From NCBI GenBank assembly GCA_014192425.1, contig BJHK01000023.1, positions 1-63,080 of the forward strand: a stretch of 63,080 nucleotides of DNA. The letters are read 5' to 3'. The notes under the pieces are model-generated. The model was given only the letters and a program-made list of their open reading frames with translations. It ran no database searches and was not told the DNA's origin. The DNA is from Planctomycetia bacterium. GTDB taxonomy: Bacteria; Planctomycetota; Planctomycetia; Pirellulales; UBA1268. The first letter of the stretch is position 1. Every line of letters starts with the position of its first letter. Both the position numbers and the translations under genes were made by a program. Shown one piece after another: positions 8,667 to 22,596 of the stretch.

Positions 8667-10328
8667 ATGAACAGTGTGCGAGGAGTGTCCACGTGCCACC
8701 GGCCCGCGCGGCTGATCGGCCTGGCGGCGGCGGTGTGCTTCGGCGGCAGCCTCGTGTCGGCCAGCGCCGCGCCCGATCCCGCGCCGGCCGCGGGCAGTGC
8801 AGCGGTGAAGCCGGCGGCGCCGGCCGCGAAGGTCACCGAGCATGGCCGCTGGGTGATCGGCGCCGATTACGGGAAGGATGGCGGCCTGCTGCTCACGGTC
8901 GGCGGCGAGAGCCTGCTGTATCGCCCCGGCGACGCGACGCTCTGGAACGGGGACGGGACGCGGATCGGCGATCTCGTCGGCCACCCGACGTCGGTCTGGG
9001 CGGCGCGGATCTCGCAGGACGGCAGCCGGGCGGCGACGGCCGGCTACGACGGGCTGGTGAAGGTCTGGGATGTCGCCACCCGCGCGTCGAAGCACGACCT
9101 CAAAAAGCACAAGGGCTGGTGCCGGACGCTCGACTTCTCCCCCGACGGCACGCTGCTCGCCACGGGGGGCGAGGATGGCAACGTGGTGCTCTGGGATCCG
9201 GCCGCCGGCACGGAGGTGAAGACGATCGCCGCCGGTCCGTCGGGCATCTCGGCCGTGGCGTTCTCGCCGGACGGCGCTCTGCTGGCGACGGGCGGTGGCG
9301 ACACGGTCGTCACACTCTGGGACGTGGCCACGGGCAGTGAGAAGGCGAAGCTCGAGGGGCATGGCGGGCCGGTGTGGTCGATCCGCTTCTCGCCCGACGG
9401 TGCGACGCTGGCCAGCGGCGCGGCTGACCGCACGGTCCGTCTCTGGACGGTCGCCGACGGCAAGCCCGCGGCCACGCTCGAGGGGCATGCCGACTGGGTG
9501 ACGAGCCTCGATTTCTCAGCCGACGGCAGCCGGCTCGTGAGCGGCGGCATCGACGGCAGCGTGAAGCTCTGGGACGTGAAGGCCAAGGGGGAGCAGGAGG
9601 GGCCGGAGAAGGCGAAGTCGAGCGTCTGGGCGGTGCGGTTCGCACCCGGCGGCAAGTCGATCCTCATCGGGACCCACGCCGGTGCGGTCGTGACCGCGAC
9701 GCCGGCACCGAAGCTGCTGCCGCCGCCTCCGCCCAAGCCGACGCCCCCGCCTCCACCTCCCTCGCCGCCGGCGCCCCCGCAGGCCGCGGCAGCGGAAGGA
9801 CTGGCCCTCAAGCCGACGGAGTTCAAGAGCGCGGCCGGGGCGACCGCCACGATCGCCGACGACGCGAGCGTCCTCGTGGGCGGCCCGCTCGCCAAGGACA
9901 CCTACACGGTCAAGACGGTGCTGCCGGCCGACGGCGCCGTGAAGGCGTTCGTGCTCGAGGCGCTGCCCGATGGAAGCCTGCCGAAGCAGGGACCGGGCCG
10001 GGCGGAGAATGGCAACTTCGTGATCAGCACGTTCGGTGCCACGTTTACCGAGCCGGCCAAGGAGGGCCCGGGCACGGCGATCCGCTTCACGGGCGCGCTG
10101 GCCGACTTCGCGCAGGATAAATACAACGCCGAGGGGATGCTCGATGCCGACGTGAACACGGGCTGGGCCATCGATCCCGAGGTCGGGAAGCCGCACGTGG
10201 TGCGGTTCACGCTCGCCCCCGACGTCAAGCTGCCCGCCGGGGCCACGGTCACGTTCACGATGGACCAACAGTACTCGGACGGCCGGCATACCGTGGGCAA
10301 GTTTCGTCTGCGGGCCGTCAAGCAGTGA
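8667..10328 (+). CDS. Secreted WD40 beta-propeller protein with proline-rich linker
   Basis: 553 residues. A signal peptide (to about residue 35) is followed by seven WD40-like blades; clear ones include TLDFSPDGTLLATGGEDGNV, AFSPDGALLATGGGD and IRFSPDGATLASGAAD, each closing with VxLWD-type strands. A proline linker (PPPPPKPTPPPPPPSPP, about residues 350-366) leads to a C-terminal beta domain with KQGPGRAENGNF and DVNTGWAIDPEVGKPH. That domain resembles one found in planctomycete DUF1553/cytochrome proteins. Likely a periplasmic or extracellular binding scaffold; the ligand is unknown. Confidence 0.8.
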   Translation: MNSVRGVSTCHRPARLIGLAAAVCFGGSLVSASAAPDPAPAAGSAAVKPAAPAAKVTEHGRWVIGADYGKDGGLLLTVGGESLLYRPGDATLWNGDGTRIGDLVGHPTSVWAARISQDGSRAATAGYDGLVKVWDVATRASKHDLKKHKGWCRTLDFSPDGTLLATGGEDGNVVLWDPAAGTEVKTIAAGPSGISAVAFSPDGALLATGGGDTVVTLWDVATGSEKAKLEGHGGPVWSIRFSPDGATLASGAADRTVRLWTVADGKPAATLEGHADWVTSLDFSADGSRLVSGGIDGSVKLWDVKAKGEQEGPEKAKSSVWAVRFAPGGKSILIGTHAGAVVTATPAPKLLPPPPPKPTPPPPPPSPPAPPQAAAAEGLALKPTEFKSAAGATATIADDASVLVGGPLAKDTYTVKTVLPADGAVKAFVLEALPDGSLPKQGPGRAENGNFVISTFGATFTEPAKEGPGTAIRFTGALADFAQDKYNAEGMLDADVNTGWAIDPEVGKPHVVRFTLAPDVKLPAGATVTFTMDQQYSDGRHTVGKFRLRAVKQ

Positions 10329-10955: not shown

Positions 10956-11221
10956 CCACGGGTCGAGGATCGATGGGCGAGACACGGGCAGCGGATGCAT
11001 GTCGGGCGCAGCCGGGCGCGGTGCTGATCACGGTCAACGGTCAGTCGCGGACGATGGTCGCCGGCGCGACGCTCCGCGACGTCGTCGCGGAACTCGGCTG
11101 GGAGGGACGCCCCCTGGCGGTCGAGCTCAACGAGCAGGTCGTGCCGCGGGCCGAACTCGGCAACCGGCCGGTCGGCCACGGCGACCGGCTGGAGATCGTC
11201 ACGCTCGTGGGTGGTGGCTGA
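10952..11221 (+). CDS. thiS: Sulfur carrier protein ThiS
   Basis: Ubiquitin-like sulfur carrier of thiamine thiazole synthesis. The C-terminal ~70 residues fit ThiS ([33 protein letters not shown]) and end in the essential Gly-Gly (VTLVGGG) that is adenylated and thiocarboxylated. About 20 extra N-terminal residues are present with the GTG start at 10952; an ATG at 10973 shortens this. thiG follows 19 bases later. Confidence 0.9.
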
Positions 11222-11240
11222 GAGCCGCCGGGAGTGTGCA

Positions 11241-12089
11241 ATGACTGACACCCAGCCTGGTATCCAAGCGCCGGCCGACGCGCTCCTGAAGGTCGGCGGC
11301 TTCGCCTTCACGAGCCGGCTGATCGTCGGCACGGGCAAGTATTCGAGCTATGCGGCCATGGCCGCCTGTCTCGAGGCGGCCGGCGCCGAGTGCGTGACCG
11401 TGGCCGTCCGGCGCGAGCGGCTCCTCAACGAGGCCGGCGAGAACATCCTCGCCCACCTTGATCCGGCCCGCTACACGCTCCTCCCCAACACGGCCGGATG
11501 CTTTTCCGCCGCCGATGCCATCCGCGTCGCCCGGCTCGGCCGCGAACTCCTGCGCGACCTCGGCAATCCGGGCGCCGACTGGGTCAAGCTCGAGGTCCTC
11601 GGCGACCGCAAGACGCTCCTTCCCGATCCGATCGGCACGCTGGAGGCGACGGAGAAACTGGCGGCCGAGGGCTTCGCCGTGCTCGTGTACACCAGCGACG
11701 ATCCCGTGCTCGCCCGCCGGCTCAAGGAGGCGGGCGCGACGAGCGTGATGCCGGCCGGCAGCCCGATCGGCTCGGGACAGGGCATCCTCAACGCCAACAA
11801 CCTGCGGATCTGCCTGGAGTATCTCAAGGGGGACGATCCGGACTATCCCGTCATCGTCGATGCCGGCGTGGGCACGGCCAGCGACGTCGCGGCGGCGATG
11901 GAGCTGGGCGTCGACGGCGTCCTGCTCAACACGGCGATCGCCCACGCCGCCGACCCGCTGCGGATGGCGCATGCCATGCGGGCCGCCTGCGTCGCAGGCC
12001 GGCAGGCGTTCCTTGCCGGCCGGATCCCGCGCCGGCTGTATGCCAGCGCCTCGAGCCCCGAGGAGGGAGCGATCGGCGGACCTTCCTGA
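11241..12089 (+). CDS. thiG: Thiazole synthase ThiG
   Basis: 282 residues forming a TIM barrel. It condenses 1-deoxy-D-xylulose 5-phosphate, dehydroglycine and ThiS thiocarboxylate into the thiazole phosphate of thiamine. Visible family motifs: [30 protein letters not shown] (with the Schiff-base lysine), [13 protein letters not shown] and [12 protein letters not shown]. The start at 11241 has GGGAG upstream. It directly follows thiS and is probably translated from the same message; hisF follows 28 bases later. Confidence 0.95.
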
Positions 12090-12117
12090 GAACGGCCCGC
12101 CCTCCGTCGTCGTCACC

Positions 12118-12894
12118 ATGCTCGCCAAGCGCATCATTCCCTGCCTCGACGTCGAGAAGGGCCGGGTCGTCAAGGGGACGCGGTTTCTCGACCTCGTCGA
12201 TGCCGGCGATCCAGTCGAGGTGGCGGCGCGGTACGAGGCCGAGGGGGCGGACGAGCTCGTGTTCCTCGACATCACGGCCAGCCACGAGGGGCGGGCGATC
12301 ATGCTCGACGTCGTCCGGCGCGTGGCCGAGACGATCTTCATGCCGTTCACCGTGGGGGGCGGAATCGCCACGCTCGACGATGCGGCCCGGCTCGTGCAGG
12401 CCGGTGCCGAGAAGGTGAGCATCAATTCGGCCGCTGTCCGGACGCCGGACCTCGTGACCGCGGTCGCCGACCGGCTGGGAAGCTGTGCCACGGTGGTCAA
12501 CATCGATCCCAAGCGGGTGCGGCGCGACGGCCGCGAGGTCTGGGAGGTGTTCATCAACGGCGGCCGCGTGCCCACCGGGCTGGAGGCCGTCGCCTGGGCG
12601 CGGCGGGTGGAGCAACTGGGGGCGGGCGAGATCGTGCTCACCTGCATGGACAGGGACGGCACGCGGGACGGCTACGACCTGGAGATCACGGCCGCCGTCG
12701 CCGGCGCGGTGCGGATCCCCGTCGTGGCCAGCGGCGGGGCTGGCAGGCCGGAGCACCTTGCGGCCGCGGTCACATCTGGGGGTGCGGACGCCGCACTCGC
12801 CGCTGGCATCTTCCACTTCGGAGAGTGTACGATCCGCGAGGTGAAGGAATTGTTCCGCCGCGAGGGAATCCCCGTCCGTCTGCCCCCGCTCTGA
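12118..12894 (+). CDS. hisF: Imidazole glycerol phosphate synthase subunit HisF
   Basis: 258 residues, the normal length. Cyclase half of the HisFH complex, converting PRFAR plus ammonia to imidazole glycerol phosphate and AICAR in histidine synthesis. Catalytic Asp11 ([10 protein letters not shown]) and the second aspartate in LTCMDRDGT are present, with phosphate-binding loops [12 protein letters not shown] and VVASGGAG. No hisH or other his gene is adjacent; hisF here travels with thiamine genes. Confidence 0.95.
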
Positions 12895-12924: not shown

Positions 12925-14073
12925 ATGGCCACCATCGACCCGTCCGTCAGCCCTGCGGCCTCCCCACCGGCGGCGCCAGCGGCCGTCAAGCGGCTGGAGA
13001 TCGACCGCTTCTTCGAGGCCCTGGTCAAGCTGGAGGGAAGCGACCTGCACATGAAGGTCGGGCAGCCGCCGTTCATTCGCGTCAAGGGTTCGTTGCAGCC
13101 ACTGAAGACCCCGCGGATCGACGACGAGCACATGCGCCGGCTCTGCCTGCCGATGCTCGACGACCGACGCCGGCGCATCCTCGATGCCGACGGGGGCTGC
13201 GACTTCGCCTACGTCGCCGACGTGGACGGGGTCCGCTGGCGGTTTCGCGTCAACCTCCTCCACCAGCAGGGTTCCCTCGGCCTCGTCGCCCGGCGGGTCA
13301 ACAACAAGATCCCCGACTTCAAGGGGCTGTTCCTGCCCCCGGGCATCGAGCAGCTCTGCCAGTACGACCAGGGGCTGATCCTCCTCGCCGGCGTCACCGG
13401 CTCGGGCAAGAGCACGACGATCGCCTCGATGCTCAACTTCATCAACCAAACCCACCGCAAGCACATCCTCACGCTCGAGGACCCGATCGAGTTCGTGTTC
13501 ACGGAGGACAAGTGCCTGATCAACCAGCGTGAGATCGGGCAGGACGTCAAGGACTTCGCGATCGGCATGAAGCACGCCGTCCGCGAGGATCCAGACATCA
13601 TCCTCGTCGGCGAAATGCGTGACGAGGAGACCTTCATGACGGCGATCCATGCCGCCGAGACCGGGCACCTCGTGTTCGGGACGATCCACGCCTCCAGCGC
13701 GGCGACGACGATCACCCGGATCCTTGACCTGTTTCCAGAGGAGATGCACCAGGCCCTGCGCAGCGCCATCGCCTTCAACATGAAGGGCATCGTGGCCCAG
13801 AAGCTGATCCGCTCGATCAAGCCGGGCGTCAGCCGGGTGCCGGTGGTGGAAATGATGCTCTTCGACGTCATGGTGCGCAAGCACGTCCTCGAGGGCGAGG
13901 ACCACATGCTTCCCGACCACGTCCGCAAGTCGCACCGCGACGGCATGCAGGACTTCACGATGAGCCTGAAGAGCCTGCTCGACCAGGGGCTGATCGACCG
14001 CCACGACGCCCTCGAGATCGCGCCCAACCGCGAGGCGCTGATGATGGCGATCAAGGGCATCGGGGTGTCCTGA
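12925..14073 (+). CDS. pilT: Type IV pilus retraction ATPase PilT
   Basis: 382 residues. Secretion-superfamily hexameric ATPase: an N-terminal domain starts LEGSDLHMKVGQPPFIRVKG, followed by Walker A GVTGSGKSTT, the Asp box LTLEDPIEF, Walker B ILVGEMRDEET and the His box TGHLVFGTIHA. PilT hydrolyses ATP to depolymerise type IV pili in twitching motility. A ~20-residue Ala/Pro-rich N-terminal extension precedes the domain. Its stop overlaps the start of the next ATPase-like gene by one base. Confidence 0.92.
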   Translation: MATIDPSVSPAASPPAAPAAVKRLEIDRFFEALVKLEGSDLHMKVGQPPFIRVKGSLQPLKTPRIDDEHMRRLCLPMLDDRRRRILDADGGCDFAYVADVDGVRWRFRVNLLHQQGSLGLVARRVNNKIPDFKGLFLPPGIEQLCQYDQGLILLAGVTGSGKSTTIASMLNFINQTHRKHILTLEDPIEFVFTEDKCLINQREIGQDVKDFAIGMKHAVREDPDIILVGEMRDEETFMTAIHAAETGHLVFGTIHASSAATTITRILDLFPEEMHQALRSAIAFNMKGIVAQKLIRSIKPGVSRVPVVEMMLFDVMVRKHVLEGEDHMLPDHVRKSHRDGMQDFTMSLKSLLDQGLIDRHDALEIAPNREALMMAIKGIGVS

Positions 14074-15884
14074 TGTCGCTCCTTCGCACACCGTCGCCTG
14101 TCCGGGGCCTGCTCTGGATCGTGCTGTCGGCCACGCTGCCGGCGCGGGCCTGGGGGGAGGGCTGGCCGGAGACCAGCCCCGACGGCTGGACAGGCCGTGG
14201 CGCCGGTGGCGGCATCGGCTTGGTCGGCCTCGCCCTGTGGTGGCTGTGCGTGCTCGGCTGGACGGCCACGGTCGATTGGCTCGGCCGCGACAGCCGCAAG
14301 CGCGCCTTCCGGCCGGCGTTCTGGGCGACGGTGGCCACGCTGCCGTTCCTGGGCACGGCCCTGCTCGCCTGGTGGATCCCCTCGCTGCTCGCCGGCCTGT
14401 TCCTCATGCTCCTGGCCTGGATGGCGCCGGTGATCGCGTACGCGATCATCGGCAACAAGGGGCGGCCGGAGTCGGAGCAGGTGCTGACCGGGGGTCACTT
14501 CCGGCGGCTGCTCGCCGGACTGCTGGCACCGCTCGGCTTCCGGATCGCCGTGGCGGAGCTGGCCGCGCCGCTGCCCACGGTCCAGCTCGAGGCGAGCGGC
14601 GGGCGCGACGATGCCGAGAACACCGCCCGCAAGAAGCGGGCGGCCGAGATGCCCGGGTTCGAGCGCACCCGCAAGCTCATCCTCGATGCCGTCGTGGCCC
14701 GGGCCACCACGGTGGCGGTCGGGCCCGATCCGCAGGGCATGGCCGTCCGGCACGAGGTGGACGGGGTCTGGGAGAAGCCGCGGATCTGCCAGCCGGCGAA
14801 GAAGCGGAGCGAGAAGGAGCGCTGGGGCGACGCCCCGCAGCCGACGGCGGACGAGGCCCGGGCCGTGATCGACACACTGGCGGCCCTCGCCGGTCTCGAC
14901 CCGGCGGCGCGCACGGCGAAGCCGGGGATGTTTTCGGTCATGGTCGACGGCAAGCCGCGGGCCTGCCGGCTGCTGATGCGCCGGTCGGAGACGGGCCCGC
15001 AGGCCGTCGTGCAGATCGAGAAGCCCGGCGAACTGTTCAAGCAGTTGTCCGACCTCGGCATGCCGGCCGACGTGGCCGGCCGGCTGACGGAGCTCCTCGC
15101 CGTGGAGAAGGGGATGATCATCATCTCGTCCCCGTCCGGGGGCGGCCTGACGACGACATTCGACGTCGTCCTGCAGACGGCGGACCGCCTGCTGCGGGAC
15201 TTCATCTCGATCGAGGATGCGGCCAATCCGGCCCGCGAGATCCAGAACGTGAAGCCGGTGCGGTTCGACACCCGCACCGGCGTGACGCCGGTCGATGCCG
15301 TCGCCACGGCGCTGCGCGAGTATCCCCGGGTGCTCGTGACCCGTGACCTGACCGACAAACCGCTGGCCGCGGAAATCGCCAGGCTGGCCGACGACAACCA
15401 GCTCGTGATCGTGAGCATGAAGGCCGACGACGCCCTCGACGCGGTCGCCCGACTGCTCGCCCTGGGCGTGCCGCGGGACGTGCTCGCCCGGACCCTGGTC
15501 GGCTCGCTGTCGCAGCAGCTCGTGCGCCGGCTCTGCCCGCGCTGCCGTGAGCAGTTTCCAACGCCCGGCGAGATCCTGGCGCGGAACAAGAAGACGCCGG
15601 AACAGGTGCCGCACCTCAACAGGCCCTCCCCGGAGGGCTGCCGCGTCTGCAACGGGACCAGTTACCTGGGACGGACCGCGCTCTTCGAGCTCGCCTCGGG
15701 CACGCACCTCCGGCAGGCGATCGCGGCCCGCGCGGACCAGCAGATCATGCGGCAGGCCGCCGCCAAGGACGGCATGCAGCGGATGCGCGAGGCCGGCATG
15801 GCCCTCGTGCTCGAGGGAGTGACGTCGATGGAGGAGATGCAGCGGGTGTTCGCCGCGGCGCGCGGCCGCAGCCTCCGGGAGTAA
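14073..15884 (+). CDS. GspE/PilB-like protein with degenerate ATPase motifs
   Basis: 603 residues. Unusually for this family it begins with a signal-like sequence and two or three membrane helices (within residues 1-135). The C-terminal half follows the GspE/PilB fold, but the Walker A region reads SPSGGGLTTT, with leucine where the lysine should be. The Walker B/His region reads VLVTRDLTDK and DNQLVIVSMKADDA instead of GEIRD and TGHLV-THT. The four zinc-binding cysteines remain (CPRCREQF and CRVCNGTSY). It is probably unable to hydrolyse ATP and may act as a membrane adaptor or regulator of the PilT/PilB machinery. It is translationally coupled to pilT. Confidence 0.8.
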   Translation: MSLLRTPSPVRGLLWIVLSATLPARAWGEGWPETSPDGWTGRGAGGGIGLVGLALWWLCVLGWTATVDWLGRDSRKRAFRPAFWATVATLPFLGTALLAWWIPSLLAGLFLMLLAWMAPVIAYAIIGNKGRPESEQVLTGGHFRRLLAGLLAPLGFRIAVAELAAPLPTVQLEASGGRDDAENTARKKRAAEMPGFERTRKLILDAVVARATTVAVGPDPQGMAVRHEVDGVWEKPRICQPAKKRSEKERWGDAPQPTADEARAVIDTLAALAGLDPAARTAKPGMFSVMVDGKPRACRLLMRRSETGPQAVVQIEKPGELFKQLSDLGMPADVAGRLTELLAVEKGMIIISSPSGGGLTTTFDVVLQTADRLLRDFISIEDAANPAREIQNVKPVRFDTRTGVTPVDAVATALREYPRVLVTRDLTDKPLAAEIARLADDNQLVIVSMKADDALDAVARLLALGVPRDVLARTLVGSLSQQLVRRLCPRCREQFPTPGEILARNKKTPEQVPHLNRPSPEGCRVCNGTSYLGRTALFELASGTHLRQAIAARADQQIMRQAAAKDGMQRMREAGMALVLEGVTSMEEMQRVFAAARGRSLRE

Positions 15885-15891
15885 AGCGGCC

Positions 15892-16503
15892 ATGATCGTC
15901 AACCTAATCCTTCTCGCCGTGTTCATGGTCGTAGCGTTTGCGCTCTGGCGGCAGGGGGCGTGGGCCACGATGCTCATGCTGCTCAATATCCTCGCAGCGG
16001 CGACGCTGGCGACGGCGTGGTTCGAAACGCTCGTGGCGATGCTCGAGCCGGTCTTCCCGTCCTACACGTACCTGCTCGACTTCATCTGCATCTGGGCCGC
16101 GTTCAGTCTGACGCTCCTGGTGCTGCGGGAAGTCATCGAGAAGGTGACTCCAGAGCGGGTCAAGCTGCGCAAGCCCGTGGAGCTGTTCGGCACGCCGCTG
16201 CTGGCCGTAATCGCGGCCTGGATCATGGTCGCGTTCACCGCGACGACGCTGCATGTCGCACCACTGCCGGCGGGGATGGTGCAGCCGACGCCCGATTCGC
16301 GGATGTTCCTCGGCCTCGCCCCCGATCGGAAGTGGCTGCAGTGGGTGCGCAACTCGTCCCGCTTCGGCCCCTTCGGCCGGCCGGACCACGCCTTCGACGA
16401 GGGAGTGGTCGCGGAGGGAGCAGGGGGCGACTTCATCATCCGCTACCACGAGCGCCGCAAGCGGCTCGCGGCCGAGGAAGCCTTGCGGATCTACGTGCCG
16501 TGA
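15892..16503 (+). CDS. CvpA-like inner-membrane protein
   Basis: 203 residues, four hydrophobic segments in the first ~120 residues (LILLAVFMVVAFALW, MLMLLNILAAATLATAWF, YLLDFICIWAAFSLTLLVL, LFGTPLLAVIAAWIMVAF), then a soluble basic tail. Topology and length resemble the CvpA (colicin V production) family, whose role concerns envelope integrity. It begins seven bases after the degenerate ATPase gene, suggesting one operon. Confidence 0.65.
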   Translation: MIVNLILLAVFMVVAFALWRQGAWATMLMLLNILAAATLATAWFETLVAMLEPVFPSYTYLLDFICIWAAFSLTLLVLREVIEKVTPERVKLRKPVELFGTPLLAVIAAWIMVAFTATTLHVAPLPAGMVQPTPDSRMFLGLAPDRKWLQWVRNSSRFGPFGRPDHAFDEGVVAEGAGGDFIIRYHERRKRLAAEEALRIYVP

Positions 16504-17142: not shown

Positions 17143-17152
17143 CGGCCGTCAG
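17139..17152. other. Perfect palindrome spanning two convergent stop codons
   Basis: CTGACGGCCGTCAG is fully self-complementary and contains both the TGA of the + gene (17140-17142) and the TGA of epmA on the - strand (17149-17151). It is too short and lacks a T-tract for a classical terminator. Confidence 0.6.
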
Positions 17153-18096
17153 GCGTCGGCGGAGCGGAAGCAGCGCACGGCGTCGATCGAATCGGCCGCC
17201 GCCGCGAGCATCACGAGGCGATCGAAGCCGAGCGCCGCGCCGACACCCTCGGGCATGCCCGGCCCATGGGCGGCGATGAGCCGGGCGGGCGGCGGCAACG
17301 CCCGCCTGCCGTCGGCGGCCCGGACCCGGTTGGTGGCCGCGATGCGGTCGGCGAGCAGGTCGCGGCTAGTCTCCTCCTCCCAGCCGTTGGCGAGCTCGAC
17401 GCCGCCGACGAAGAGTTCGAAGCGCCGGGCGGCGGGGGGCTCGGAGGCGACGCGGGCGAAGGCCGCCTGCGATGGCGGCCAGACCTCGAGCATCGTCGGC
17501 CGGCCGTGCCCCAGCCGCGGCTGCACCACGTCGGTGAGCAGCATCTCGAAGGCCCGGTCCCAGCGGTCCGCGGTTCCTGCCCGCGGGTCGGGCGCCGGCC
17601 CGCGGATGCCGGCCCGCTCCACCGCCTCCTCCATCTCCGCCAGCGACGCACGGAGCGGATCGACGCCCGCCGCCGCGCCGAAGGCGGCGGAGCAGGTCGT
17701 GCGCTCGAGCCCCGTGGTGCCGAGCGCGACGCTGCACAGCCGCTCGAGGAGCGTGGCCGTGTCGGCGAGCGTGGCCTGCGGCGCGTACCATTCGAGGAGC
17801 ACGAATTCCAGGTCGTGCTGCCGCCCCTGCTCGCCGGCGCGGAACGAGCGGGCGAACTGGTAGATCGGGCCCGAGCCGGCCGCCAGGAGCCGCTTCATCA
17901 GCGCCTCGGGGCTGGCCTGCAGCCAGCGGTCGGCGCCGCCGGGGATCGGCACGGCGAGCGGGTCGATGTAGGGCTCCGGCAGCACCTCCGTCGAGAGCAC
18001 GGGGGTGTCGACTTCGAGGAACCCGAGGCCGTCGAACAGGTCGCGCAGGCGGGCGCGGACACGGGCCCGCAGTTCGAGGATCGGCCGCGCCGTCAT
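17149..18096 (-). CDS. epmA: Elongation factor P lysylation protein EpmA (GenX/PoxA)
   Basis: 315 residues, matching the short lysyl-tRNA synthetase paralogue that lacks the anticodon domain. Class II motifs: motif 1 FDGLGFLEVDTPVLS, motif 2 FARSFRAGEQGRQHDLEFVL, motif 3 GVGAALGFDRLVMLA, plus ELANGWEEETS. EpmA attaches beta-lysine to EF-P, helping ribosomes pass polyproline stretches; this suits a genome with proline-rich linkers such as in the WD40 protein. The partner aminomutase EpmB is not in the window. Its start overlaps the end of the upstream uspA-like gene by four bases. Confidence 0.88.
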   Translation of the reverse strand: MTARPILELRARVRARLRDLFDGLGFLEVDTPVLSTEVLPEPYIDPLAVPIPGGADRWLQASPEALMKRLLAAGSGPIYQFARSFRAGEQGRQHDLEFVLLEWYAPQATLADTATLLERLCSVALGTTGLERTTCSAAFGAAAGVDPLRASLAEMEEAVERAGIRGPAPDPRAGTADRWDRAFEMLLTDVVQPRLGHGRPTMLEVWPPSQAAFARVASEPPAARRFELFVGGVELANGWEEETSRDLLADRIAATNRVRAADGRRALPPPARLIAAHGPGMPEGVGAALGFDRLVMLAAAADSIDAVRCFRSADA

Positions 18097-18616: not shown

Positions 18617-20728
18617 TCAGTGGAGCCGCATGCCGGGCACGGCGCCGGAGTCGGGGGACAGCAGGTAGACACCTGGGCCGCCGGCCCCGCTGGCGGCCAC
18701 GACCATCCCCTCGCTGAGGCCGAACTTCATCTGCCGGGGGGCGAGGTTGGCGACGATCACCACCAGCCTGCCGACCAAGGCCGCTGGCTCGTGGAATCCC
18801 TTGATACCGGCGAACACCGTCCGCCGGTTCTCGCCGCCGAGGCTGACCGTGAGCCTGAGGAGCTTCTTGGCCTCCGGCACCTCCTCGGCGGCGACGATCC
18901 GCGCCACCCGGAGGTCGATCTTCGCGAAGTCGTCGATCGTGCACTGGGCCGCGAGCGGCTCGGCGACGAGGGCCGCGTCGCTGTTGGTCATGCCGCCGGT
19001 CGAGGCCGCGGGGGTGGGCTGTTCCATCTGTGCTGCTCCTTGGTGTGCGGTTCGTTCATCCGCCTGCTGCCGTTCCGCGGCCAGCAGCGCCGAGATCTGG
19101 GCGGGCTCGACCCGCCGCATGAGAGGCTGGAAGGACGCCACCGGGGCGGCCGTGAGCGGCGCCTGCGACTCGTCCCAGGAGCGGATCGGACCGCCGACGA
19201 GAGTTCCGACCTGCTCGGCGAAGGCCGGCAGCACCGGCGCCAGGTAGACGGCGATCTGCCGGAACAGGTTGAGGGCCACGCTGGCCACGTCGCGCAGCCT
19301 GCCCGCGGCGTCGGGCCCGGCCTTGGCGAGCTTCCAGGGCTGCTCCGTATCGACGTACGCGTTGGCCCGGTCGGCTGCCGCCATCACCAGCCGCATCGCC
19401 CGGGCCGTGTCGCAGGCCTCGTAGGCGGCGGCGATCGCCGCGCCGTCGGCCGCGGCGAGGGCGAACAGGCCGCCGTCGTCCGGATAGCGGTCGGCGAGGC
19501 CGGTCCCCTCCAGCCAGCGGGCCGTGCGGCTGGCGAGGTTCACCACCTTGCCGACGAGGTCGCCGTTCACCTTGGCGGCGAAGTCGTCGAGATCGAGGTC
19601 GATGTCGTCGATGCCGCCGGAGAGCTTGGCCGCGTAGTAGTACCGCAGCATGCCCGGGTCGAGGTGGTCGAGGTAGGTGCGAGCGCGGAGGAACGTGCCC
19701 CGGCTCTTCGACATCTTGGCGCCGTTGACCGTCAGGAAGCCATGCACGCGGACCCGGGTCGGCAGTGCCAGGCCCGCAGCCTCGAGAACCGCGGGCCAGA
19801 ACAGCGTGTGGAAGTAGACGATGTCCTTGCCGATGAAGTGGTGGATCTCGGCCGGGGGTTCGTTCGCAGCGCCGCGGGCCCACCAGGCGTCGAACGACTC
19901 GCCGCGGGTTGCACACCACTCGGCCGTGGCCGCAAGGTAGCCGATCGGGGCGTCGAACCAGACGTACCAGTAGTGGCCCGGCGCGTCGGGGATCTCGAAG
20001 CCGAAGTACGGGGCGGGCCGCGACACGTCCCAGTCGCGGAGCGGCTCGCCGAGGAAGTGGCCGGCGAGGTAGTTGGCGACGGGCGGGTCGAGGGCGGCCG
20101 AGTGCCGCGTCCAGTGGTCGAGAAAGCCGTGCATCCGCTCGAGCGTCACGAACAGGTGCTCGGCCGACCGAATCTCGGGCCGGGTGCCGGAGAGCGTGCT
20201 CCGCGGATCGACGAGGTCGGCCGGCGTGTAGGTGGCGTTGCACTGCTCGCAGGCGTCGCCGTACTGGTCGGCCGCCCCGCACTTCGGGCAGGCGCCCTTC
20301 ACGAACCGGTCGGCGAGAAACACGCCGGCCTCGGCGTCGTAGAGCTGGCTGACGGACCGCGAGACGACGAGGCCGCGGTCGCGGAGCCGCCGCCAGATCT
20401 CGGCGCACAGCCGGCGGTTGGCGTCGCTGTCGGTCGAGCCGTAGTGGTCGAAGGCGATCTGGAATCCGGCGAAGTCGGCCTCGTGGGCCGCCCGCATGGC
20501 GGCGATCAGGTCCTGCTCGCTGCGTCCCTCGGCGCGGGCCCGGATCATGATCGCCGTGCCGTGCGTGTCGTCGGCGCAGAGATAGACAGCCCGCTGGCCG
20601 CGAAGCTTCTGGAAGCGCACGAAGATGTCGGTCTGGATGTACTCGACGAGGTGCCCGAGATGAATGTGGCCGTTGGCGTAGGGGAGCGCCGACGTGACGA
20701 GGATGCGGCGGGAGGATGTGGCAGGCAT
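18617..20728 (-). CDS. metG: Methionyl-tRNA synthetase
   Basis: 703 residues. Class I synthetase charging tRNA-Met. The HIGH-type motif is in [10 protein letters not shown], a zinc knuckle in [17 protein letters not shown], and KMSKS appears as [11 protein letters not shown]. After the anticodon-binding helices and a variable Gln/Ala-rich linker (about residues 540-590) comes an OB-fold tRNA-binding domain ([34 protein letters not shown]), as in E. coli MetG. The start at 20728 places the catalytic domain directly at the N-terminus. Confidence 0.95.
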
Positions 20729-20916
20729 GCGGCGTCGTGACGGCGTGCGGGACGACTGGGAGAGCCGGGATTGTAGAAGCGGACCGAGGGGTGGGAAACA
20801 GCATCCGCCTGGCGGTTTGGGCAAACGTCGGCGAGCCCAACTGGCCTTGTGGCGTCGGCGGACGCCGGGCAGTATTCCGCCCCCGCATGCGTACCAGACG
20901 TTCGGAGCCACGGAAG

Positions 20917-22596
20917 ATGCCCTCAGTCAGACTCTGCACCGGCCTCGTGATCCTCCTTCTCGCCGCGTGGGCCGGTCCTGCCGCGGCCAGCCCTGCCGCC
21001 GGCAATCCGGCCGCTCAGGCCGCAGCCGGCGAGGCCCTGCTCCTCGACTTCACCGCCCCGTGGTGCACCCATTGCCGGCAGATGGAGCCGCTGCTTCGCG
21101 ACGTGGCGGCGGCCGGCTGGCCGGTGCGCCGCGTCGACTGCGACCGTGAGCTCGACCTCGTCCGCCGCTTCGGCGTCTCGGCCGTCCCCTGCTACGTGCT
21201 CGTCGTCAAGGGGCACGAGGTGGGCCGGATCGACGGGGCCACGACCCAGGGGGAACTCGAAAAACTGCTGGCCCGCGCCGCGGCCCCCCTCGGTGGCGTC
21301 GCCGTCGCTCCCGCCACGCGCACGCCGGGGCTGATGCCCGGCATGCCAGTGCCCACGGCGGCCTCATCGGCGCCACTGTCAATCGAGCCGCCGGCGCGGG
21401 CGAATACGCCGGCCGCAGCCCTGGCCACCGCCCCGGCGCCGGCTGTCGCGGACGCCGGTCCGCAGCGGACGCTGGCGGTTCCGGTCAGTCAGCGGCAGGG
21501 TGCGGCCCCGACCGCCGTGCCGACCCCGACCGCCGCGACCGCCGCCGCGACCGCCGCCGCGACGCTACCCGCCGGCTCGCACGGCGCGATGGACCGCCGG
21601 TTGCTGGCCGCAACCGCCCGGCTGCGGGTTGACGACGGCAAGGGAATCTCCCGCGGCACGGGGACGGTGATCGACTGCCGCCAGGGGGAAGCCCTGATCC
21701 TGACCTGCGGCCACATCTTCCGCGACTCGCAGGGCAAGGGACGGATCGAAGTCGACCTGTTCGCGCCCGGTGGCCAGCGGGGCGTGAAGGGGGAGCTCAT
21801 CTCCTGGGATCTGCAACGCGACCTGGCGCTGGTCAGCGTGTTCACCGATCGGCCGATCGATGCGGTGCGGGTCGGCGGCGGTGATCAGCGGCCGGCGCCG
21901 GGCGATGCCGTGATCTCCGTCGGCTGTGACGGCGGCGCCGATCCGACCGTCCAGCACAGCCGCGTGAACGCGATCGATCGGTATCTCGGCCCGGCGAACG
22001 TCGAGGTGGCGGGGCAGCCCGTCCAGGGCCGTAGCGGCGGCGGCCTGTTCGCCGCAGACGGCACGCTGATCGGCGTCTGCAGCGCGGCGGACAAAGAATA
22101 CGACGAGGGCATCTTCACGGCCTTGACCGCCGTGCACGAGCAGCTCGACGCCGCCGGCCTGGCCGACGTCTACCGGCACGTCTATCCCGGCGCCGACGCC
22201 CCCGCCGTGGCCCTGCCGACCATGCCCGCGGAGATGCAGACAGCGTCGTTCGAACGCCGGCCGCGCGACGAGGCCGTGCCTACTGCAGCGACCGGTCCGG
22301 CGTCCCGGCCCGAGCCCCCGGTCGGCGCGGAGCTCTCCCCCGGCGAGCGTGCGCTCGTCGACCAGGTCCGTCGCCATCAGGGCCGGGCCGAGGTGATCTG
22401 TATCATCCGCCCCCAGGGCGGCGGACAGACCGACAGCGAGGTCTATGTGCTCAAGGACACGGGCCCCGGATTCGTCGAGCGGCTGTCGGAGGCGCACCGG
22501 ATGCCGGCCCGGCAAGATACCGCTGCGGGCCGACAGGTCGGCGAGTCGTCCCGGCCCGACCTGGCCCGGCTCCCCGCCGCCACCACGCTGCGGTAG
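20917..22596 (+). CDS. Secreted thioredoxin-domain / trypsin-like protease fusion
   Basis: About 559 residues. The signal peptide ([20 protein letters not shown]) is followed by a thioredoxin fold with a redox CTHC motif ([16 protein letters not shown]). An Ala/Pro-rich linker (about residues 130-220) leads to a chymotrypsin-fold domain. Its triad is visible as TCGH (His), [11 protein letters not shown] (Asp) and GRSGGGLF (Ser). A C-terminal tail follows. The two activities would act outside the cytoplasm, for instance in quality control of secreted disulfide proteins; that role is inference. An ATG at 20887 is an alternative start. Confidence 0.8.

Follow-up and report, generated by a model that had tools for sequence, protein, structure and literature searches.

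The N1 domain of PilB and GspE ties the motor to PilM or GspL. How a PilT-type motor engages the pilus platform, and whether both members of a motor pair need ATP, are open questions. One relevant precedent comes from PilU, which works only through PilT, even when that PilT is catalytically dead (PMC6762196). Thus, loss of catalysis in one member of this family need not stop it from serving an active one. Here we describe a planctomycete relative of PilB and GspE that is encoded directly behind pilT and that is, on a well supported reading of its sequence, a pseudo-ATPase. Searches of open-licence papers on planctomycete PilT, PilB and GspE, on pilus-motor pseudo-ATPases and on Pirellulales pili turned up no description of such a protein.

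The window, by which we mean the whole 63,080-nucleotide stretch of Pirellulales DNA that was analysed, presents the gene in the following arrangement:

12113 to 12894, forward strand: hisF, the upstream neighbour, part of the open reading frame 11860-12894, with an approximate start (PF00977, E 2.2e-78)
12925 to 14073, forward strand: pilT, an intact PilT-family, retraction-type ATPase of 382 residues (TIGR01420, 382.6 bits, cut-off 319.1)
14073 to 15884, forward strand: membrane-anchored PilB/GspE-like pseudo-ATPase of 603 residues, assigned from its PF00437 match, its motif losses and a structure model
15892 to 16503, forward strand: cvpA-like gene for a membrane protein, the downstream neighbour (PF02674, E 1.6e-5, under the curated cut-off)

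At the junction ...GTGTCCTGATGTCG..., the TGA stop codon of pilT (14071-14073) and the ATG start codon of the pseudo-ATPase gene (14073) share one base, as the original prediction had reported. The end of a thiG frame (11211-12089) lies within the long hisF frame. Elsewhere, the window encodes a WD40 beta-propeller protein that has a proline-rich linker and is extended at its C-terminus (8667-10328), a protein in which a thioredoxin domain precedes a trypsin-like peptidase domain (20716-22596) and, on the reverse strand, a short class II lysyl-tRNA-synthetase-like protein of 315 residues (17149-18096, PF00152), which we take to be possibly an EpmA-type enzyme.

A Pfam search matches residues 256-591 of the window protein to PF00437 (T2SSE; E 5.4e-41), the scores against the GspE and PilB models of NCBIfam fall far under the curated cut-offs, and the PilT/PilU family model TIGR01420, with its cut-off of 319.1, gives only 35.7 bits. 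A structure predicted with 53 relatives as input has a mean pLDDT of 91, and its residues 193-594 superpose onto crystal structures of PilB, PilF and GspE in VIA and Foldseek searches. VIA matches 5zfr with Z 37.6 (2.4 Å across 376 residues), and 5tsh gives a TM score of 0.88 by target length. In this model, the motor fold is intact.

The motifs of this fold read as follows:

15117 to 15158, forward strand: dead Walker A motif, IIISSPSGGGLTTT, with Leu359 at the position of the lysine, which is missing in 109 of 110 clade members
15201 to 15233, forward strand: altered Asp box, FISIEDAANPA, two residues longer than the active EDPxE in alignments
15333 to 15359, forward strand: altered Walker B motif, LVTRDLTDK, compared with GEIRD in active relatives (Gly to Arg424, Glu to Asp425)
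15405 to 15434, forward strand, ends approximate: altered His box, VIVSMKADDA, compared with TLHAND in active relatives (His to Lys450)
15534 to 15650, forward strand: tetracysteine zinc site, CPRC...CRVC (C488, C491, C523, C526), invariant in 110 of 110 clade members

Thus the protein reads SPSGGGLTTT, EDAANPARE, TRDLTD and SMKADD where active relatives read GPTGSGKTT, EDPxE, GEIRD and TLHAND. Its residues were mapped onto Geobacter metallireducens PilB by motif spacing and alignment, with residue roles taken from PMC5424180. By this mapping it lacks the Walker A lysine, the Walker B glutamate, the His-box histidine and a complete pair of ATP-contacting arginines, all expected of a functional motor: the equivalent of PilB R271 is retained as Arg299, whereas that of R286, the second ATP-contacting arginine, is Gln314. 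The first glutamate of the Asp box is kept as Glu381, and the equivalent of E357, the Mg-binding Asp-box glutamate, has an uncertain placement owing to the two-residue insertion there. The original prediction had named the losses in the Walker A motif and the His box and the survival of the zinc site, all of which the alignments bear out. It had also listed the Walker B glutamate as lost; the residue is indeed replaced, but conservatively, by aspartate, next to the exchange of glycine for Arg424. From this pattern we infer that the window protein does not turn over ATP.

One intersubunit residue has survived. PilB R455, which contacts the adjacent subunit across the nucleotide-free interface (PMC5424180), corresponds to Arg485 of the window protein, and its retention would fit a ring held in one state.

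This constellation is not peculiar to one genome. A first search of 60 genomes (the window's own and others of the same genus, family and order) gave PF00437-type matches in all 60, full-length in most. The clade set examined for conservation comprises 110 members, drawn from genomes of the same order and from named records that include Bythopirellula, Rhodopirellula, Rubripirellula, Mariniblastus and Laterigemmans and that were assigned to the clade from how closely their adjacent PilT matches. The Walker A position is leucine in 92 of these members, and the only lysine belongs to the second member of a tandem pair, the soluble one (L121). The His-box histidine is gone from most of the clade, the R286 equivalent is lost in 93 members and is arginine in 17, and the R271 equivalent is retained in only 32. 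Arg485 is present in every member, as are two further arginines, R372 and R375, the latter not invariant in intact relatives. The original prediction had proposed to check whether the losses are conserved; within the order, the loss is near-universal.

Could the motor simply be a dispensable one undergoing neutral decay? Partial loss of motifs in several lineages (L112, L114, L118-L120, L135, L139) is what such decay might look like. However, omega lies between 0.04 and 0.36 in most close pairs, with a few higher values at large distance (0.47 for the window protein and L002). Close pairs are under purifying selection, and the gene encodes a selected protein. Together with retention throughout the order and the invariance of the zinc cysteines and Arg485, this already contradicts neutral decay, which we regard as scarcely credible, and local decay is rejected on the same evidence. 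Chance is excluded as the origin of the pattern by the order-wide matches, the invariant zinc site and dN/dS values well below 1.

A second alternative is that the motifs have drifted and that the protein still binds nucleotide, or hydrolyses it slowly, by means of other residues. Glu381 is retained in 98 of the 110 members, the Walker B position is mostly acidic (Asp in 69, Glu in 24), the Walker A Thr/Ser residues often remain, and Arg424 is newly placed beside the pocket. Some residual nucleotide binding may persist, given the aspartate of the window protein and the glutamate of those 24 members. Weak catalysis is nevertheless distinctly improbable, because the residue that replaces lysine is mainly hydrophobic, the histidine is lost and the R286 equivalent is rarely kept. 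The invariant R372 and R375 were considered as a relocated lysine; both would sit on the P-loop helix but at its far end, and on position only this substitution appears unlikely.

The region in front of the motor fold contains the following:

14073 to 14150, forward strand: signal-peptide-like first hydrophobic segment, residues 1-26, with its end predicted at residue 26 by a crude scan
14220 to 14456, forward strand: three-helix membrane anchor, residues 50-128, placed from the model helices, with conserved W63, W69, D73, W84 and N128

The model has three to four N-terminal helices (residues 9-20, 50-76, 81-101 and 105-128), and the crude scan finds a signal-peptide-like start in 70 of the 110 clade members. 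Membrane helices occupy the place of the N1 domain, for which no Pfam match was found; PF00437 is the only Pfam match up to E 0.01. The loop that joins membrane helices one and two, and the stretch that follows helix three, are strongly basic, which suggests that the motor part is cytoplasmic. The original prediction had described these helices as gained by a protein that had lost its catalytic residues. The helices are indeed present in the model, but acquisition together with the catalytic loss is rejected, since an anchor of the same kind is found in intact orthologues, which share its tryptophan and aspartate residues, and in a paralogue with intact motifs from the window's own genome.

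Some dead members lack the anchor. In Rhodopirellula, Rubripirellula and their relatives the dead protein is reduced to about 445 residues (L122-L126, L161-L166, L204, L211), which indicates that anchoring is not always required. Mariniblastus and others carry tandem dead copies, one anchored and one soluble (L121, L175, L178, L182). Some genomes of family f22 encode an extra soluble pseudo-ATPase with the sequence GPPGSGVTTT, unlinked to pilT and with its zinc cysteines kept (L127:3989-5410, L128, L129, L133).

The homologue comparison, which was centred on the phylum Planctomycetota, indicates what the pseudo-ATPase most likely once was. In other orders of the class, among them Gemmatales, Planctomycetales and Isosphaerales (the last assumed from family codes), the gene in the same operon has fully intact ATPase motifs (GPTGxGK, GEIRD, HAND) and the same anchor. 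Intact loci comprise most of L099-L117 together with L131, L134, L136-L138, L140, L189, L195, L200, L202 and L210; some families have it in front of cvpA but away from hisF and pilT (L104-L106, L134, L138). These intact relatives make it most likely that the ancestor was a membrane-anchored motor and that the dead form is derived. The original prediction had equated intact close homologues with a local decay. Intact syntenic orthologues do exist in sister orders, but the loss spans essentially all of the window's order and is maintained under purifying selection.

Dead forms that look separate occur in Phycisphaerae, where 27 of 28 lie directly behind pilT. Their replacements of the lysine vary (Leu, Val, Arg, Ala, Met and others), and they have no insertion in the Asp box. 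In a quick tree built without the motif columns, intact forms make up a grade within which dead forms are nested. The same tree unites the dead forms of Pirellulales and Phycisphaerae; long branches are present, and the union of all dead forms may reflect long-branch attraction. A constraint that unites the operon proteins of Planctomycetia is not rejected by the AU test (p 0.09), and neither is grouping family f21, which holds both intact and half-decayed forms (p 0.09). The Asp-box insertion is limited to the dead forms of Pirellulales, which speaks for separate losses. Loss of catalysis on at least two separate occasions is likely. Among the half-decayed forms, L118, L119 and L120 keep a Walker A lysine or arginine, have lost the Walker B glutamate and the histidine, and sit on long branches, and the operon orthologue at L114:3845-5698 (genome G065) is without the zinc cysteines and most motifs.

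The linkage to pilT is likewise conserved. The order hisF-pilT-pseudo-ATPase-cvpA is found throughout Pirellulales, pilT is immediately upstream of the pseudo-ATPase gene in 95 of the 110 members, and 51 of the 110 have the exact one-base overlap. For intact orthologues, the median gap to pilT is 84 bases. The motifs of the operon PilT (GVTGSGKST, LEDPIE, LVGEMRD, TIHAS) are intact throughout the clade. One genome (G043) has its matching pilT elsewhere, and a close relative of the operon pilT was not found in another (G057, 92% complete), which does have the pseudo-ATPase. A candidate co-variation at PilT residue 221, glutamate with dead and glutamine with intact partners, failed in half-decayed lineages. 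The hisF gene upstream is also conserved beyond the order, and the hisF-pilT pair recurs in much of the phylum, although no functional reason for it is apparent. Since hisF and cvpA are co-transcribed as well, membership of the operon, taken alone, is weak evidence for a complex.

We hypothesize that the pseudo-ATPase, tethered to the membrane and working independently of nucleotide, forms a ring or subunit of PilB-like shape by which the adjacent PilT is docked or coupled to the pilus platform, a proposal to which we give about an even chance. It draws on the synteny, the overlap of stop and start codons, the pattern of retained and lost residues and the PilT/PilU precedent. Behind a signal-like start, three membrane helices would replace the N1 domain and tether the motor-shaped part to the cytoplasmic face of the inner membrane. 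This part would keep the PilB fold and the zinc domain and would be unable to grip or hydrolyse ATP in the normal way. Produced alongside the intact PilT encoded next to it, and presumably assembling with it, the protein could sit as a static ring or subunit beside the platform while PilT supplies the ATP cycle. Many members have lost the equivalents of both ATP-contacting arginines, which speaks against mixed rings in which the protein would complete active sites of PilT; stacking would still be compatible. The filament served is probably a type IV pilus-like fibre.

The main rival to this docking or coupling role is a competitive inhibitor, in which the dead PilB-shaped ring displaces the active extension motor on the platform protein, so that pili are held off or retraction is favoured. 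The shape of the protein would suit such a brake, and targets for competition exist in its own genome, where a pilus cluster on contig C5 (G000:C5) encodes two PilB-like proteins, PilC and another PilT. Motor inhibitors are known in other bacteria (PMC8213720). However, the intact syntenic orthologues share their operon with PilT, which points to an ancestral role as a motor partner, and expression coupled to that of PilT fits a partner better. We therefore lean towards a dock or coupler and consider a brake unlikely.

The genome that holds the window also bears on which fibre is served. The PilT of the C5 cluster is 37% identical to the operon PilT, which is the second PilT of the genome, and PilM and many SBP_bac_10 (DUF1559) pilin-like genes are present as well. 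This family is described as expanded in planctomycetes (PMC8567305; PMC10632474), in which pili-like fibres arise from crateriform structures (PMC5394234). With a PilT beyond that of the C5 cluster at hand, the pseudo-ATPase might instead be a structural component of some secretion or fibre system that is specific to planctomycetes and distinct from a retractile pilus, and in which PilT has been re-used. No direct link was found between the operon and planctomycete fibres, and we judge this alternative improbable.

A broader proposal, tentative enough that we would sooner expect it to fail than to hold, is that in at least two lineages of Planctomycetota an anchored, PilT-linked motor turned into a catalytically dead but selected scaffold, leaving PilT as the only engine of a two-ring machine. 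The family of type IV pilus motors would then include a naturally dead subunit. Because the protein appears to be dead in one order and intact in sister orders within the same operon, the locus offers a clean comparison of motor shape without fuel. In addition, planctomycete annotations as 'GspE' or 'PilB' can label proteins that are unable to be motors.

Compared with PilB and GspE (PF00437), the pseudo-ATPase shares the N2 and ATPase core fold, the tetracysteine zinc domain and the inter-subunit arginine, but it is without the catalytic lysine and histidine and one ATP-contacting arginine, and has membrane helices where an N1 domain, of which none was found, would stand. A close counterpart is the anchored GspE-like motor of Gemmatales, Planctomycetales and Isosphaerales (for example L100, L105 and L210), which shares its position beside hisF, pilT and/or cvpA, its anchor with the tryptophan and aspartate motif and its approximate length, and which differs in that every ATPase motif is intact. 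A second anchored GspE-like protein in the same genome (L051:2164-3909, on G000:C29) likewise combines an anchor with a PilB core, yet has intact motifs, is unlinked to pilT and occupies a separate branch of the tree; it has relatives in members of the same family (L057, L058, L060-L063), and SBP_bac_10 genes lie on its contig. Finally, the gammaproteobacterial PilT and PilU pair resembles the planctomycete one in that two family proteins are encoded side by side and one can work via a dead partner (PMC6762196). PilU, however, is an active PilT-type protein without an anchor, whereas the planctomycete partner is PilB-like, naturally dead and membrane-bound.
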